A stretch of 31,828 nucleotides of DNA from a virus. Positions 1,894 to 8,884 of the stretch are shown piece by piece; position 1 is the stretch's first letter, and each line of letters starts with the position of its first letter. Both the position numbers and the translations under genes were made by a program. The notes beneath the pieces were generated by a model. The model worked only from the letters and a program-made list of their open reading frames with translations, was not told the origin of the DNA and did not search any database. Location of the stretch: IMG/VR virus record IMGVR_UViG_3300020214_000072, positions 1 through 31,828 of that record; one strand, given 5' to 3'.

Positions 1894-3549
1894 ATGGGCC
1901 GTAGACAAAATAGAAAAAAAGAATCAAACGATCAAGCTGGGAGATCCTCATCCTCAGCAAGCGACAAAAAGTCAGCTAGCATTTCTTCGATATTTGACAA
2001 AAATCTTAAGTCTTTACCTAATATCATAAGTACATTCAGAAAGGCTCGATTAGAAACCGGTTATGATGAACCTGCTTATTTTGGATTTGCCATTGATATA
2101 CACAGTCAAACAACAGAGGCGACTAACATGTTTAATCCATGGACAGGACTTAGAGCAAACCCACTTTTTTATTTACCAGAGTGGGTAAACTTAAAGGGAG
2201 ACGGCTCTGGTATAACTGATGTTAATGATGGAGAAAATTTTAGTAAGCTGCTAGAAAACGCGTATGAAGCCTGTGCAATTCAATACTTAAATAGTTTTTC
2301 GCTGCCTCTTGATAAAACCTATGATGAGCTTGCAGCAAATAATCTAATTCTAAGTAGCGCAGCAAATTCTTTATCTGGACCGCTTAGACCTGGTGGAGAT
2401 TTAAATAGAGGTTTCTATTTAATGGAATTTATTAAAGTATTAAATTCTATTCAAGAAAAGAGCCCATGGACTTTTAAGGAATTAGATGGAATTCCAAATT
2501 TATGGAAGGCAACCCAACCCAACTATGATTATAAGCCCGTCGAACTTACTCTAACTGCACAAGAAACAGTAGATTTACGTATAACCAGATTGGCTGAAAC
2601 TTATAGAATGGCAAGTTTTGATTCATTTAATGGTAGAAAAATACTTCCGCCTAATCTTGAAAGATTTTCAATGGATGTATATTTTATAGATTTAAGATTT
2701 CTAAAACACGCCAATGCCGAAAGTATTCTCTCCGGTGGAAATGGACCAGACTATTCTTCCGATTTTTCCGGCCAAATAAATTTTGGCGGAGTTGCTTTTA
2801 GATGTTATGGTTGCAAATTTGATTTTTCAAATTTATTAGAAAATGCATCCCAAGCAAAGTCTTCGATTGGAGAAAATAGCGGATTTGATACTAAAGTTAA
2901 AATTGTAGTAGATCGAGTTTTGCCAGCAACTTACTTTGGAGATAAGGCATTCGGTATAGCTGGATTTGAAAATAGTGAAGATTCCGGCGAAACTAAGTTA
3001 AGAAATACAGTAGGCGGAGCACTTAACTTGGGACCATTTACTGGAGGAGTCAATCGAGTTATAGAATCTAGCCGCCGAGCATTAACTAATATATTGGGAG
3101 CCCCGCAAAGAGCCCTAAATGACGCCCTACTTAAAACTCAAAGACGATTCGAAGGAGCAGTTTCCGACGCGCTTGGAGATAGCCCCCTTAGTAGTAGACC
3201 ATTTGAGAAAAAGGAAATCGAAACCCTCTTAAATGAAAGAAAAACCGGTGGAGGAATTAAACAAGATGTTTTTCCAGGAGTGGACAATAGAACAGCCAAT
3301 CCGATTAAGAACGATATTTTTCCAGGGGTGGACACTAGAAAAGCAAATCCAATTAAACGGGATGAATTTACTGGCGTTGATGTAAGAAAAGCGGCACCGA
3401 TTAGAAATGATGTTTTTCCTGGCGTTTCATCAAAAACTGCTGGAAAAATTAACCAAGATGTTTTTCCTGGAGATACGCCGGTGTTGACTATTATAAACCA
3501 AAGAAAAACTGGAGGTAAAATAAACAGCCAGAATCCATATAAACAATAA
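1894..3549 (+). CDS. Baseplate/tail-tube-type structural protein with C-terminal 16-residue repeats
   Basis: I place the start at ATG 1894, four bases after the previous stop. An in-frame ATG at 1843 would overlap the previous gene by 47 bases and add an unlikely leader. The product is 551 residues. After a basic, serine-rich N-terminus, the central part (about residues 40-390) contains FNPWTGLRANPLFYLPEW, GRKILPPNLERFSMDVYFID and INFGGVAFRCYGCKFDFSN. The last two resemble the tube-like fold of T4 tube-initiation and tail-tube proteins (gp48, gp54, gp19). Residues 455-534 are five 16-residue repeats, flanked by NERKTGGG and NQRKTGGK. It lies between hub and spike genes. A gp48/gp54-like role at the baseplate-tube junction is an inference; the repeats are not part of those families as I know them. 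Confidence 0.45.
   Translation: MGRRQNRKKESNDQAGRSSSSASDKKSASISSIFDKNLKSLPNIISTFRKARLETGYDEPAYFGFAIDIHSQTTEATNMFNPWTGLRANPLFYLPEWVNLKGDGSGITDVNDGENFSKLLENAYEACAIQYLNSFSLPLDKTYDELAANNLILSSAANSLSGPLRPGGDLNRGFYLMEFIKVLNSIQEKSPWTFKELDGIPNLWKATQPNYDYKPVELTLTAQETVDLRITRLAETYRMASFDSFNGRKILPPNLERFSMDVYFIDLRFLKHANAESILSGGNGPDYSSDFSGQINFGGVAFRCYGCKFDFSNLLENASQAKSSIGENSGFDTKVKIVVDRVLPATYFGDKAFGIAGFENSEDSGETKLRNTVGGALNLGPFTGGVNRVIESSRRALTNILGAPQRALNDALLKTQRRFEGAVSDALGDSPLSSRPFEKKEIETLLNERKTGGGIKQDVFPGVDNRTANPIKNDIFPGVDTRKANPIKRDEFTGVDVRKAAPIRNDVFPGVSSKTAGKINQDVFPGDTPVLTIINQRKTGGKINSQNPYKQ
3256..3495 (+). repeat. Five tandem 48-bp units (16-residue repeats) in the baseplate protein gene
   Basis: Translation gives IKQDVFPGVDNRTANP, IKNDIFPGVDTRKANP, IKRDEFTGVDVRKAAP, IRNDVFPGVSSKTAGK and a degraded fifth copy starting INQDVFPG. 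The period is exactly 16 codons. DNA copies have diverged at synonymous positions while the core D-x-F-P-G-V is kept, which points to selection on the peptide rather than recent slippage. Confidence 0.9.
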
Positions 3550-4371: not shown

Positions 4372-5238
4372 GTGAAAGACTATTATAATATACTAGGAGT
4401 AGATCGTGGGTGCAACCAGTCCGATATTAAAAAGGCATACCGAAAACTTGCCGTTAAGTATCACCCTGATAAAAATCCAGCCGGCGATGCCAAATTTAAG
4501 GAAATCGCTGAGGCATACAGTGTATTAGGAGACGAGGAAAAACGTAAAAATTATGATCGCGGCGGGTCAACCGGCTCTGTCTTTGAAGACCTCAGGGACA
4601 TGTTTGCTGGCTTTGGTGCCGGTGACATTTTCACTCAAAATTGGGGCATTGACCTAGATATTGTAGTTAATCAAAAGATTGACCTTAAGGATTTGCTTAT
4701 CGGCAAAACAATTGAAGTTGTCTATACAAAAAGGGGCGAATCTACCCCTATTAAATTTAGTGTCGATATCAAGCCAGATTCAACTAAGCACCAACTTATT
4801 TTCGATGGCAAGCGGGCATTTTCCAGATTGACTTTTCAAAATATGGGAAATCACGGAAAGCTTGGTGGAGGTAGCACTTTTAATCGTACGTTTATCGGTA
4901 ACCTCTATGTTTTGCTTGAAATAATTTTACCGAATGGCGTTAATATCGATTCCTCTGGTACCATTATCGATAATCGAGAAATTAATCTTTCTGATCTAAT
5001 TAATATTGAAAACCTAATCTTTAAATCAGTTGCTGGTACTAATTTTAGAATAAAATCGTTAAATGCTAAATCTTTTGACGATCTTAAAATCACCATCCCC
5101 GGTAAAGGGCTGAACTCCGGTCAAGCCGGGTCTGGGGCCTATGTGTTCAAAATTCACACAAATATACCCAATTTTGATAAGTTAACCCAAGAGGAAACAG
5201 CGGAGTTGATAGGCCTAATAAATAAGACTAATAGGTGA
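4372..5238 (+). CDS. dnaJ: DnaJ-type co-chaperone (phage-encoded J-domain protein)
   Basis: The start is a GTG at 4372; no better start is available before the J-domain. Residues 1-65 are a canonical J-domain with KYHPDKN (HPD at 31-33), the loop that stimulates the DnaK ATPase. A short Gly/Phe-rich linker ([11 protein letters not shown] to AGFGAGDIF) follows. Residues about 95-285 resemble two beta-rich substrate-binding domains, including a [21 protein letters not shown] segment and [16 protein letters not shown]. There is no CxxCxGxG zinc-binding region, so it is of the DnaJ type II (CbpA-like) kind. At 288 residues it looks complete. It lies between tail and head genes on the late strand, so it may recruit host DnaK to virion protein folding. 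The client is unknown. Confidence 0.85.
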
Positions 5239-5277: not shown

Positions 5278-5286
5278 TATAAATAA
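5278..5286 (+). promoter_or_regulatory. Late promoter core (TATAAATAA) before gp21-gp22
   Basis: TATAAATA at 5278-5285 is identical to the T4 late promoter -10 element, in the 65-base gap after dnaJ. The motif ends 17 nt before GTG 5304, close to the 18-21 nt spacing at other late genes here. A second ATAAATAA lies at 5218-5225, in the last codons of dnaJ. The segment 5239-5303 holds nothing else that I recognise. Confidence 0.6.
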
Positions 5287-5303: not shown

Positions 5304-7337
5304 GTGGTCCTTACTGGTGTAAACGAAATTACAAACACTTCAGATATGCTCTTCATTATTGAAAGAGTAAATGAAGGATTAACTTCTGCAAAAACGGATA
5401 ACGGTGACATTGTTATGGTTGGAATTTGCGCGGTTTTCGGGCAAATGAATAACAATCGTCGGCTCTACGAAAAAGCAGAATATCTTCCTCACCTAGAATA
5501 CCTTAACGAGAAAATTGAAAAGGGTCAACTATTTGGTGAGTTAGACCACCCACAAAACTTTGACGTTTCCTTGAAGAATGTTTCTCACGTTGTTGAGAAA
5601 CTATGGTACGATCAAGATGATGATACTGTAAAAATTCAAGTACGTCTTCTTAACACCCCAGCGGGCCAAATTGCAAAAACCCTAGTTGAATCTGGCTGCA
5701 CAATCTCAACTTCATCAAGAGCAGCCGGCCAGGTTGCAAATGAGGGTAAAGTAAAAATCCAAAAGATTTTCACATATGATCTAGTTGCTGAACCCGGTTT
5801 CAGCGAAGCTGTTCTTAGAAGATCAGTCAACGAAAGCTTCCAGAATAACTATTCTATGCTTTTTGAATCTTTGGAAACAATTAAATCTACATCAATTGTA
5901 AACAAATTGGTTGATATCTCTGAAAGTCTTAATCTCGCAGAATCGATCAAGGTTTATAAGATAAATAATGAAGAGATAGTACAAACTATGGAAAATAATA
6001 ACAAACACATGACTAATGAGTTTGTAACGAAAGAAGCATTCAACCAATACTCTGAACTTGTTAAAAGCAAGTTCGATGCTCTTAAAGAGAGCGTAGATAA
6101 AATGGTTGATGGCTTCGCAGTTACCGAAGACGACCAAGTGGAAGATGCTCCAGTGGTTAAAGGCCCAGATGCCGAAAAAGAAGAGGAGACAGTTTCAGCT
6201 ACCAACGAACAGTTGGTTGAATACATTAACTATCTTTCAGGCGAGCTTAGCAAAGTAATTGACTATAACGATTACCTTTCTGGCATGTTAAACAAATCTA
6301 TTAATTACTCTGAGCACGTTGCTGAGAGAGTTAATAAGGTAATTGATTACTCAGATTATCTTGCAGAAAAAGTTGAGCAGGGTATCGGGTATGCCGAATA
6401 TGTTGGAGAAAACCTAAACAATTCAATCGATTATTCAGAGCATATCGCAGAAAACGTAAACAAAAATATTAAGTACACAGAATACTTAGCAGAAAACCTT
6501 GATAAAGGAATTCAATATTCTGAGTATGTCGCTGAAAAATCAGAGCAAGGAATCAGATACACTGAATACGTTGCTGAAAACTTAAAGCACTCTATTGGTT
6601 ACGCTAACTATCTTGCTGAAAATCTAGAAAAAGGAATTAAATATTCTGAATATATTGCTGAATCATTAAATGAAGGTAAAGCGGGTGTTTCTGTTAAAGA
6701 GGATTCTGCACTTAGCCAAATTGAAAAACTAGACGAATCTGTAAATTATAAAGTAGCCGAAGGTTCTAGCGTTAGTGATATTGTAAACTCAGTTAATTCA
6801 ATTGTTAAGCATATCAGAGATAATTCAGCTAAAGCTGTACTAGAAAGCAAATATCCTTTCTTAAAGCTTCTTAATGAAGATAATAAATCAAGATTCTTTA
6901 GCCTGTCCCAAGAACAAAAAACTGCTATTATTGAAGCTCTTTCAGGTGCAGTTTATTTCAAAGAAGAGGACGTTATTCAAATTATTGAATCAGTTCTCAA
7001 CAAGCAACAAGAAAATACTCCTAACTTAATCAAATTCATGCCTGCTAAATTTAAAGATATTTACGAAAGCATGACCCCTGCTGAAAAGAGCCGTCTAGAA
7101 GCTCAAGCTTCTCTAACTGTTCTTAATACCCCTTATCAAGTTAAAAACTTCTGGGAAAGCAGAGATCTAAGAGGAGTTAACGAAAGACTTTATTTCGAAA
7201 AACAAAATAAAAATGCGCAACAAATCAACGAAAGCCAAGGTAGAGAAGGTTTCATCTCGATTGAAAAAGTTGCGGAACATCAAAGAGGTTACTCTAGCGA
7301 GTATATCTCAGCTCTAAAAAGAAGAGCACAAAACTAA
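5304..7337 (+). CDS. Fused prohead protease (gp21-like) and scaffold/core protein (gp22-like)
   Basis: The 677-residue product is given from GTG 5304; ATG 5346 (residue 15, MLFIIERVNEG) is an equally possible start. Residues 15-175 are a T4 gp21-type serine protease: the GELDHP motif places a catalytic His at 82, VSH a second His at 95, and STSSRAAGQV the nucleophile Ser at 137/138. In T4-like phages this enzyme cleaves scaffold and capsid proteins after [IL]xE. Residues about 229-677 look like a scaffold: a charged linker, eleven 14-residue coiled-coil-like repeats (305-458), then a conserved-looking C-terminal part with IKFMPAKFKDIYESM. T4 has separate gp21 and gp22 genes. An ATG at codon 229 follows an internal late-promoter motif, so free scaffold may also be made. 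gp23 follows directly. Confidence 0.75.
   Translation: MVLTGVNEITNTSDMLFIIERVNEGLTSAKTDNGDIVMVGICAVFGQMNNNRRLYEKAEYLPHLEYLNEKIEKGQLFGELDHPQNFDVSLKNVSHVVEKLWYDQDDDTVKIQVRLLNTPAGQIAKTLVESGCTISTSSRAAGQVANEGKVKIQKIFTYDLVAEPGFSEAVLRRSVNESFQNNYSMLFESLETIKSTSIVNKLVDISESLNLAESIKVYKINNEEIVQTMENNNKHMTNEFVTKEAFNQYSELVKSKFDALKESVDKMVDGFAVTEDDQVEDAPVVKGPDAEKEEETVSATNEQLVEYINYLSGELSKVIDYNDYLSGMLNKSINYSEHVAERVNKVIDYSDYLAEKVEQGIGYAEYVGENLNNSIDYSEHIAENVNKNIKYTEYLAENLDKGIQYSEYVAEKSEQGIRYTEYVAENLKHSIGYANYLAENLEKGIKYSEYIAESLNEGKAGVSVKEDSALSQIEKLDESVNYKVAEGSSVSDIVNSVNSIVKHIRDNSAKAVLESKYPFLKLLNEDNKSRFFSLSQEQKTAIIEALSGAVYFKEEDVIQIIESVLNKQQENTPNLIKFMPAKFKDIYESMTPAEKSRLEAQASLTVLNTPYQVKNFWESRDLRGVNERLYFEKQNKNAQQINESQGREGFISIEKVAEHQRGYSSEYISALKRRAQN
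5961..5968 (+). promoter_or_regulatory. Candidate internal late promoter upstream of an in-frame scaffold start
   Basis: ATAAATAA lies inside the protease-scaffold gene at the junction of the two domains. It ends 19 nt before ATG 5988, which is in frame and is codon 229 of the fusion. This matches the 20-21 nt spacing at the tail tube and sheath genes. It would give a scaffold product of 449 residues. The motif also encodes residues of the fusion, so chance cannot be excluded. Confidence 0.4.
6216..6677 (+). repeat. Eleven tandem 42-bp units (14-residue double-heptad repeats) in the scaffold domain
   Basis: Codons 305-458 are exactly eleven units of 14 residues with the consensus I-x-Y-[ST]-[ED]-[YH]-[VLI]-A-E-[NK]-[LV]-x-x-[GS]; examples are IDYSEHIAENVNKN and IKYTEYLAENLDKG. 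Fourteen residues equal two heptads, so a long coiled coil is likely. DNA copies differ at many third positions. Confidence 0.92.
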
Positions 7338-7354: not shown

Positions 7355-8884
7355 ATGTCTACAAAAGTATTTAAAAGACTAAACGACGCTTCTGTTAAGT
7401 CAACTTGGGCTCCTGTTTTAGAAAGCTATGGTGTAAACGCTGATGCTCGTCCTTGGTTAGTAGATTATTGCCACTATCACGCAATGTTCGAAAACGCTGG
7501 TGCGATCAACGAAGCAGCTATTGCTCCTGGTCTTTTCTTTCAACAACCCGGTTCTATCAGTTCAGTCGGTAACCCATTAGCTCCTACAACGGCAGCTGCG
7601 GGTTCAGGTGATAAATTTCCAAGTTTATTGCCAGTTGCTATTCAAGTAGCAGCAAAAACAATTGGTTTTGATCTAGTTGGTGTAGTTCCTATGGACTCTC
7701 CAGTTGGTTTTCTTCCTTACTTAGATTATGTTTACCAAGGTGGTAACTTAAACAGTGAGTTTGAACCATATTTAATCAAAACTAACCTTGACGTAGCTAA
7801 CCCAGCTCCAACTGCTAACGGCACAGATTTTATCCAAGTTGGTAAATCTCGTTTAGATGGTAAATTTATCTACAAAGTTGTAACTGGTACTGACGCTAAT
7901 GTTACTGTTGCTCAAGAAGCAGTTACTGCCCAGATCGCAACTGCAGTAGCTGACGTTGAATTGGTTTCTGCATTAGAAAACCACATCTCTGGCTTCACTT
8001 CTTTAAGTGATGCTGATTGGGCTGACGGTTCTCCTGCAGTATCTGGTCCTTTCTTAGGTGGTTCTGAGTATACTCAAACCATGTCAAGAGGTGCCGGCGA
8101 AACTTCTAGACTTCGTCAAATGGGTCTTAAAATGTTCACTAAGTTTGTTGAGGCTAAAACTTCTCAAGTTTCTATCTCTGCAACAGTTGAGCAAATTCAA
8201 GATCTTAACAGAGTTTGGAATTTCGACGCAATCTCTATGTTAGAGAATGTTGCAGTTAACGAGCTTGCTCAAACTATCAACAAAGAAATCGTTTCTAAAG
8301 TTAAAAACTTAGCAACAACTCATGCCTCTGCAGCTGCTTCAGCTGAAGGTTATGCAGCTAGTGTTAACGTTCAACCAGGTGCTGGTACTTTTGAAAACGT
8401 AACGACTTCTCAAAGAAAATTAGTTACTAAGATTCTTGAATCTGCTAACTTAATTTATCACAGAGCTCGTTTCGGTGCTGGTACGTTCGCAGTAGTTTCT
8501 GCTAAAGTTGCTTCAGCTCTTGCTGATGCTGCTGGTTATTCAATTGCTCCTTTCAACAACGATTTAGGTTCAGCTGCTGGTACTTTGTACCCTGCAGGTA
8601 AAGTTCACGGTTTAACTGTGTACGTTGATCCTAACTTGAAATTCGATAACAACACTGTTCTTATCGGACGTAAAGGCGCTGACGAAGAGCCAGGTCTTAA
8701 ATTCATGCCTTACATCATGGCAGAATCTCTTCAAACTATCTCTGAGGGTACTTTCTCTCCAAAGATTGGTATGAAGTCAAGATATGCTCTAGTTGAGGCT
8801 GGATGGCATCCTGGAACTCAGTACGTTCAATTCGATATCTTGAATGCTGCTGGTAATGGTTCAGGTATCTCTTATTTAGGTTAA
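7355..8884 (+). CDS. gp23: Major capsid protein (gp23-like)
   Basis: The 509-residue product is close to T4 gp23 (521). It starts at ATG 7355 after an A-rich leader with no Shine-Dalgarno match. The segments LPVAIQVAAKTIGFDLVGVV and PMDSPVGFLPYLDYVYQGG, and the C-terminal LKFMPYIMAESLQTISEGTF with FSPKIGMKSRYAL, follow the T4-type capsid protein (HK97 fold) pattern. A likely maturation site for the prohead protease is GAINE/AAIAP, cutting after Glu53; T4 gp23 is likewise trimmed near residue 65. The codons use few C- or G-ending alternatives and look optimised, as expected for the most abundant virion protein. A terminator follows, so it probably ends the protease-scaffold-capsid transcript. 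It polymerises into the head shell. Confidence 0.92.
   Translation: MSTKVFKRLNDASVKSTWAPVLESYGVNADARPWLVDYCHYHAMFENAGAINEAAIAPGLFFQQPGSISSVGNPLAPTTAAAGSGDKFPSLLPVAIQVAAKTIGFDLVGVVPMDSPVGFLPYLDYVYQGGNLNSEFEPYLIKTNLDVANPAPTANGTDFIQVGKSRLDGKFIYKVVTGTDANVTVAQEAVTAQIATAVADVELVSALENHISGFTSLSDADWADGSPAVSGPFLGGSEYTQTMSRGAGETSRLRQMGLKMFTKFVEAKTSQVSISATVEQIQDLNRVWNFDAISMLENVAVNELAQTINKEIVSKVKNLATTHASAAASAEGYAASVNVQPGAGTFENVTTSQRKLVTKILESANLIYHRARFGAGTFAVVSAKVASALADAAGYSIAPFNNDLGSAAGTLYPAGKVHGLTVYVDPNLKFDNNTVLIGRKGADEEPGLKFMPYIMAESLQTISEGTFSPKIGMKSRYALVEAGWHPGTQYVQFDILNAAGNGSGISYLG

Follow-up and report, generated by a model that had tools for sequence, protein, structure and literature searches.

A T4-type prohead protease joined to a scaffold-like domain in one phage gene, with a putative late promoter and a conserved candidate start inside the joined frame

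The window, meaning the whole stretch of DNA analysed here, is a 31,828-base record of an uncultured virus, in which a forward-strand reading frame at 5304–7337 is open from a GTG start, encodes 677 amino acids, and directly precedes the gene for the major capsid protein gp23 (7355–8884, forward strand; Pfam Gp23, 2.9e-48). The first-pass annotation had read this frame as a single 677-codon gene in which a protease with GELDHP and TSSRA motifs is followed by a scaffold-like repeat domain, and both the open reading frame and Pfam bear this out. An exact match to the late-promoter box TATAAATA lies upstream at 5278–5285 on the same strand and is assigned to the full-length gene. Residues 51–54 of gp23 read INE|A, a look-alike of a T4-type maturation site. 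A gene with a DnaJ domain (1.6e-26) occupies 4372–5238, between the baseplate and protease genes and inside the structural cluster.

The N-terminal part of the protein, about residues 16–220 (5349–5963, forward strand), carries the S77 (T4 gp21-type) protease domain, as indicated by Pfam, AlphaFold and Foldseek. The Pfam S77 profile (PF03420) matches residues 39–153 at 4.1e-11, exceeding its curated cut-off, and a profile search with the protease matches T4 gp21 (5jbl) at 7.3e-7. An AlphaFold model of the fused protein, built from 41 relatives (mean pLDDT 61), is confident only in the protease and the C-terminal helices: the protease fold spans about residues 35–170 with an additional strand at 215–219, the linker at 222–242 is of low confidence, and long helices follow. 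When the protease model was searched with Foldseek, the top match was again T4 gp21 (5jbl; E 1.4e-7, TM 0.68 on target), with herpesvirus proteases, among them pseudorabies pUL26N, ranking next (E 1.5e-3 and weaker). The GELDHP and TSSRA motifs fall at residues 78–83 and 136–140, respectively, and D81, H82, P83, S137, S138, R139 and D159 are invariant across 45 sequences; the catalytic roles of these conserved His and Ser motifs are assigned by homology. By profile, fold and motifs, the protein appears to be a prohead protease of the T4 gp21/S77 type, with predicted activity. Leu-Ala-Glu at residues 211–213 (5934–5942, forward strand), a T4-like [LI]xE followed by Ser in the linker, is a candidate self-cleavage site at which the protease could be released.

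The predicted free scaffold (6009–7337, forward strand; 442 residues, pI 4.8) is mostly helical and includes, at 6216–6671 on the same strand, a run of 14-residue repeats (YxEYLAENLxKxI), most of them containing [LIV]xE. Such motifs look like cleavage sites of T4 gp21, and they are over-represented in residues 237–677, with 24 [LIV]xE against 12.0 in shuffled sequences and 10 [LIV]AE against 0.9. Sequence homology to T4 gp22 was sought with hhalign (probability 0.6%) and among PHROGs (no gp22 match), and on these results we dropped the idea that the domain is a gp22 homologue. It nevertheless has gp22-like traits, being helical, acidic, rich in protease sites and placed between the protease and gp23. 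The term scaffold is therefore used here as a functional reading, from position, predicted helices, acidity and cleavage-like sites, of a domain that would work like gp22 without being filed as its homologue.

Relatives were collected by protein searches of IMG/VR, which yielded 18 contigs and then 80, and remoter ones were drawn from public phage records; no close relative in culture was found. Protease and scaffold share one frame in essentially all of the about 80 contigs (32–90% identity), and by this comparison the fusion is a family-wide feature of a large group of uncultured T4-type phages. Fused forms are present in Rhizobium, Acinetobacter and Tenacibaculum phages too, and the match of the window to PHROG 207 (519 positions), which holds T4 gp21, runs across the protease–scaffold junction, so that fusion as such is not new. 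Genes encoding the protease only are found in T4, Pectobacterium phage CBB, Xanthomonas phage XacN1, Pseudomonas phage Ettore, Sphingomonas phage PAU and Flavobacterium phage immuto. Two contigs have in-frame stops, one in the linker (L084) and one in the repeats (L097), which may be sequencing errors or natural splits made tolerable by an internal start. In Flavobacterium phage MaF61 (L020), the prohead protease opens a frame of more than 1,400 codons, beginning at 3393 and annotated as a putative prohead scaffold. In Vibrio phage 1.031.O (L171, 1655–3073), the protease domain forms the C-terminal part of a 472-residue protein, after a long N-terminal extension that is basic and then acidic, and the scaffold is a separate gene.

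Inside the fused frame, at the domain junction, ATAAATAA occupies 5961–5968 on the forward strand, within codons 220–222 (ATA AAT AAT). The first-pass annotation had proposed that this is a late promoter, followed after 19 bases (5969–5987) by an in-frame ATG at 5988, with the spacing seen at other late genes. The coordinates check, and the spacing is right for the genome, the mode being 19–22 nt in a close relative of 217 kb (G001). In that relative, ATAAATAA occurs 46 times, mostly 15–25 nt upstream of an ATG; 25 copies lie 11–27 nt before a called gene start, and only five are intragenic in the sense direction, the junction site among them. The motif by itself means little, because one-mismatch TATAAATA sites in the window are at chance level (89 against 92 expected). 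A codon test on the 19 sequences of clade A compared synonymous identity with each pair's own rate. Ile220–Asn221 is encoded by ATA-AAT in all 19 (z 6.3 against an sd of 1.9), and codons 219–224 are among the three top peaks of the gene, the others lying just past Met236 and near the 3′ end. In clade B1, tested apart, the top peak of the gene falls at the same protein site and reads AAG-ATA-TAT-AAA-GTT, with codon identity in 12 of 12.

In four related genomes, each internal site carries the box of its own genome. The most enriched 8-mer before gene starts is ATAAATAA in G001 (25 against 0.7) and G006, and GATATATA in the clade-B genomes G007 and G008 (40 against 1.3 and 19 against 0.7), whose internal sites contain exactly GATATATA. 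Boxes inside genes in the sense direction are rare in these genomes (5, 8, 4 and 2), and the junction supplies one of them in all four. A box lies within 90 nt before Met236 in 38 of 57 members, where the remainder of these genes predicts 0.27; dereplication at 60%, which does not fully correct for shared ancestry, leaves 11 of 26 against 0.16. Genes for gp55-type late sigma factors are present in eight of eight related genomes tested. The box thus resembles a T4-type late promoter in its TATAAATA-like match, its genome-wide consensus, its spacing and the presence of gp55 in relatives, and its selection at the DNA level in two clades upholds the proposal of an internal late promoter, albeit a putative one. 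The distance from box to Met236 is 40 nt in the window and ranges from 22 to 71 nt in the family, which indicates that the box shifted in evolution while some box was kept. About a third of members (L016, L025–L029, L078, L093, L094, L101–L107 and others) have a missing or degenerate box and retain the Met. Two of these were considered as support and left uncounted: megaphage LR756502 (L027), whose late box is AATATATA and whose internal site is merely a mismatched GATATATG, and L078 (G009), whose internal site holds only ATAAACGA.

The start codon that the putative promoter would serve is probably not the one originally put forward. The proposal had been initiation at ATG codon 229 (5988–5990, forward strand), 19 nt after the box. 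It is instead the in-frame ATG of codon 236 (6009–6011, forward strand) that is conserved, being invariant in a 45-row alignment (A2) and found in 53 of the 55 non-redundant members of a separate alignment. An alignment of relatives, suggested in the first-pass annotation as a check on both motif and ATG, divided the two: the promoter motif is kept far above the synonymous rate, and ATG 229 is lost beyond the nearest relatives. Met229 occurs in 5 of 19 clade-A sequences, those of the window's subclade, and is ruled out as a general start because it is missing outside these; it may be co-used there, since its 19-nt spacing is the mode of the genome. Aside from Met236, the only invariant residues in A2 are those of the protease core plus P580, F616 and W617. 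The invariant Met just precedes the motif [NE]FVTxExxNxY, and the linker around it is free in both length and sequence.

The A-rich leader of Met236 (5991–6008, forward strand) is distinctive in base frequencies and in weak folding. Adenine is found at –14 in 43 of 43 family members, at –15 in 98% and at –12 in 95%, compared to 59%, 40% and 25% at the respective positions before other in-frame ATGs of the same genes; the overall fraction of A is 0.62 versus 0.38, and predicted folding is weaker (–3.2 versus –5.8 kcal/mol). Codons just after Met236 are also synonymously constrained in the clade-A test. In Flavobacterium, start regions are devoid of Shine-Dalgarno motifs and over-represent adenines from –14 to –11, and adenine at –12, –13, –3 and –6 accompanies higher translation (PMC6847099). 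The Met236 leader appears to resemble such Bacteroidota ribosome-binding sites, and this leader type is our only basis for taking the host to be a member of the Bacteroidota. The in-frame junction ATG of the fused genes in Rhizobium phage TM39 and Acinetobacter phage Ab1-TPeters is instead directly preceded by GGAG or GAGG, suggesting that the start signal at the junction differs by host group. In Vibrio phage 1.031.O, the scaffold is a protein of its own that begins at the equivalent point: its residue 5 lines up with residue 225 of the Ab1 fusion, in which the junction Met is residue 218. Overall, these sequence comparisons support selection on an internal in-frame start.

Upstream, the start of the full-length frame has features of its own. 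The first possible start is GTG or TTG in 13 of 13 clade-A members examined, among which an in-frame ATG slightly further in occurs only in the window and L052; non-ATG starts are rare in late genes (4 of 31 and 3 of 43). This suggests little fusion and much scaffold in clade A, the direction proposed in the first-pass annotation, although in clade B the full-length frame begins with ATG, so that a weak upstream start is not general. Met15 (5346) was rejected as the full-length start, as L010 has Ser at this position yet keeps the GTG.

A possible origin is visible in T4, where the TATAAATA ahead of gene 22 shares bases with the gene 21 stop codon (gcg tta TAA ata). Two of the three frames of ATAAATAA read TAA, and the fused genes use only the open one (ATA AAT AAN). 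In the simplest history, the gene 21 stop would have been lost while the promoter and start of the scaffold were retained within the joined frame. Our preferred reading, to which we give a probability of roughly 0.78, is such a fusion of genes 21 and 22 that keeps the scaffold's late promoter and start, and yields a little protease–scaffold and much free scaffold. Transcripts from the upstream late box (5278) would produce the fusion via the weak GTG start, and those from the internal box (5961), beginning past nearly all of the protease coding sequence, would produce free scaffold only. The latter would be initiated mainly at Met236 (6009), and perhaps at Met229 as well; ribosomes could also enter at Met236 on the longer transcripts. 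We infer that the scaffold tail of the fusion would co-assemble with free scaffold, building a minority of protease into the core, and that after completion of the shell the protease would cut itself in the linker (e.g. after LAE213), digest the scaffold at the repeated [LIV]xE sites and trim gp23. T4 uses about 580 copies of gp22 versus about 55–100 of gp21 (PMC9958956, PMC5694885), which makes a similar imbalance of products plausible here. If so, gene callers, which give one 677-residue protein at this locus, probably overlook its main product, the free scaffold.

The alternative that survives best, although still unlikely, is that only the fusion is made, as for gpO of P2, in which protease and scaffold also form a single gene (PMC8508860); self-cleavage would then supply the free scaffold, the Met would be structural and the box incidental. 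Candidate [LIV]xE cleavage sites do exist in 76 of 79 family linkers, and Tenacibaculum phage PTm1 (L021, 3579–5273) has a fusion without the junction methionine, possibly representing a fusion-only head. However, a fusion-only head fails to predict three of the observations above, namely the conservation of box codons in two clades with different box sequences, the signature of adenines at –14 and –12, and the Shine-Dalgarno motifs at the junction ATG of the proteobacterial phages. It is likewise quite improbable that free scaffold arises by internal translation alone, with Met236 entered on the full-length mRNA and the box not acting as a promoter. A precedent exists in lambda, whose C and Nu3 overlap within one gene (PMC8508860 and its reference list), and Met236 with its leader is conserved more widely than the box, such that this explanation is likely for those members that have no box. 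Where the box is present, it is codon-conserved, clade-specific and matched to the late consensus of each genome, which internal translation would leave unaccounted for.

Very unlikely is a third possibility, in which the internal box serves gp23 and later genes as an additional promoter, and free scaffold is an unimportant by-product. Since gp23 is next in line, any transcript from the box would cover it, and intragenic late boxes near gene ends do occur elsewhere in these genomes. Against this, gp23 appears to have an element of its own at 7203–7253 (forward strand). This second synonymously constrained stretch, AACGAAAGCCAAGG, which encodes NESQG, is the strongest such signal in the gene for clade A (z 8.2 at 15 codons) and in L033–L042 comes after ATAAATAA, about 130 nt upstream of gp23. 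It is probably a promoter or leader element for the capsid gene that is likewise concealed within scaffold-coding sequence. Moreover, an extra gp23 promoter leaves the conserved Met236, its leader and the codons that follow unexplained. Finally, one-mismatch sites are at chance frequency in the window, but the idea of an AT-rich coding sequence in which ATAAATAA and a Met occur by accident is contradicted by the comparative data (codon identity in 19/19 and 12/12, and boxes in 38/57 against 0.27) and has a negligible likelihood.

The nested arrangement preferred here, in which the 3′ part of the protease gene doubles, in frame, as a scaffold gene with an apparent start of its own, has its closest parallel, by analogy, in UL26/UL26.5 of herpesviruses, and its phage parallels in lambda C/Nu3 and P2 gpO. 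Herpesvirus UL26 encodes an N-terminal protease and a C-terminal scaffold, with self-cleavage in the linker releasing the protease, and a nested gene, in the same frame and sharing the 3′ end, also yields the scaffold by itself (PMC4498786). The phage gene has the same order of domains, nested in-frame scaffold frame and common 3′ end, and its protease model resembles the herpesvirus proteases, which rank behind T4 gp21. In contrast, the phage nested unit is predicted from sequence, the phage promoter is of the late-sigma type, most of the phage scaffold looks digestible, as in T4, and the two scaffolds have no known sequence in common. That both nested units descend from one ancestral arrangement seems a distant prospect; we entertain it because the fold of the phage protease is the one shared by T4 gp21 and the herpesvirus enzymes, and because the gene has the same layout, with an apparent promoter of its own for the scaffold. 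Repeated independent fusion is more likely, as protease and scaffold are separate genes in T4 and in several other phages that have this protease.

Among phages, the gene is like lambda C/Nu3 in that the scaffold is encoded, in frame, by the 3′-terminal part of the protease gene, and differs in that an additional internal promoter is indicated. Nu3 is attributed to internal translation, and neither the lambda protease nor that of P2 gpO belongs to the family of the phage protease studied here. P2 gpO combines protease and scaffold in one polypeptide, as here, whereas a nested start for free scaffold is not cited for P2 in the same source (PMC8508860). T4 genes 21 and 22 share the gene order, protease family and type of late promoter with the fused gene, but are separate; shorter in-frame internal products are annotated for T4 genes 17 and 21. 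Rhizobium phage RHph_TM39 and Acinetobacter phage Ab1-TPeters also have one protease–scaffold frame with a junction ATG, although with a Shine-Dalgarno motif rather than an A-rich leader, and with a different scaffold. Searches of open-licence papers turned up no account of such a layout in T4-type phages. What appears to be new here is the combination of a T4-type protease, a putative phage late promoter embedded in the coding sequence, and start signals that vary by host group.

If correct, the nested reading would extend herpesvirus-like protease loading, in which few protease-tailed scaffolds are included among many plain ones, to phages with proteases of the T4/herpesvirus type, where protease and scaffold are otherwise thought of as separate genes. 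It would also illustrate that a gene fusion can keep a downstream promoter and start alive within coding sequence, readable from codon conservation alone.

Two minor observations concern the promoters of the related phages. Their late boxes fall into two dialects, GATATATA in L064 and L058 (G007 and G008) and ATAAATAA in L007 and L034 (G001 and G006), each accompanied by a gp55-type sigma gene, and hence provide a natural set for co-change of sigma factor and promoter. In G007 and G010 (L121–L138, L177–L188), a second motif, TATATTTG, is enriched upstream of genes; it resembles the Bacteroidota housekeeping promoter element, TAnnTTTG, and such sites are likely early promoters that hint at the host.
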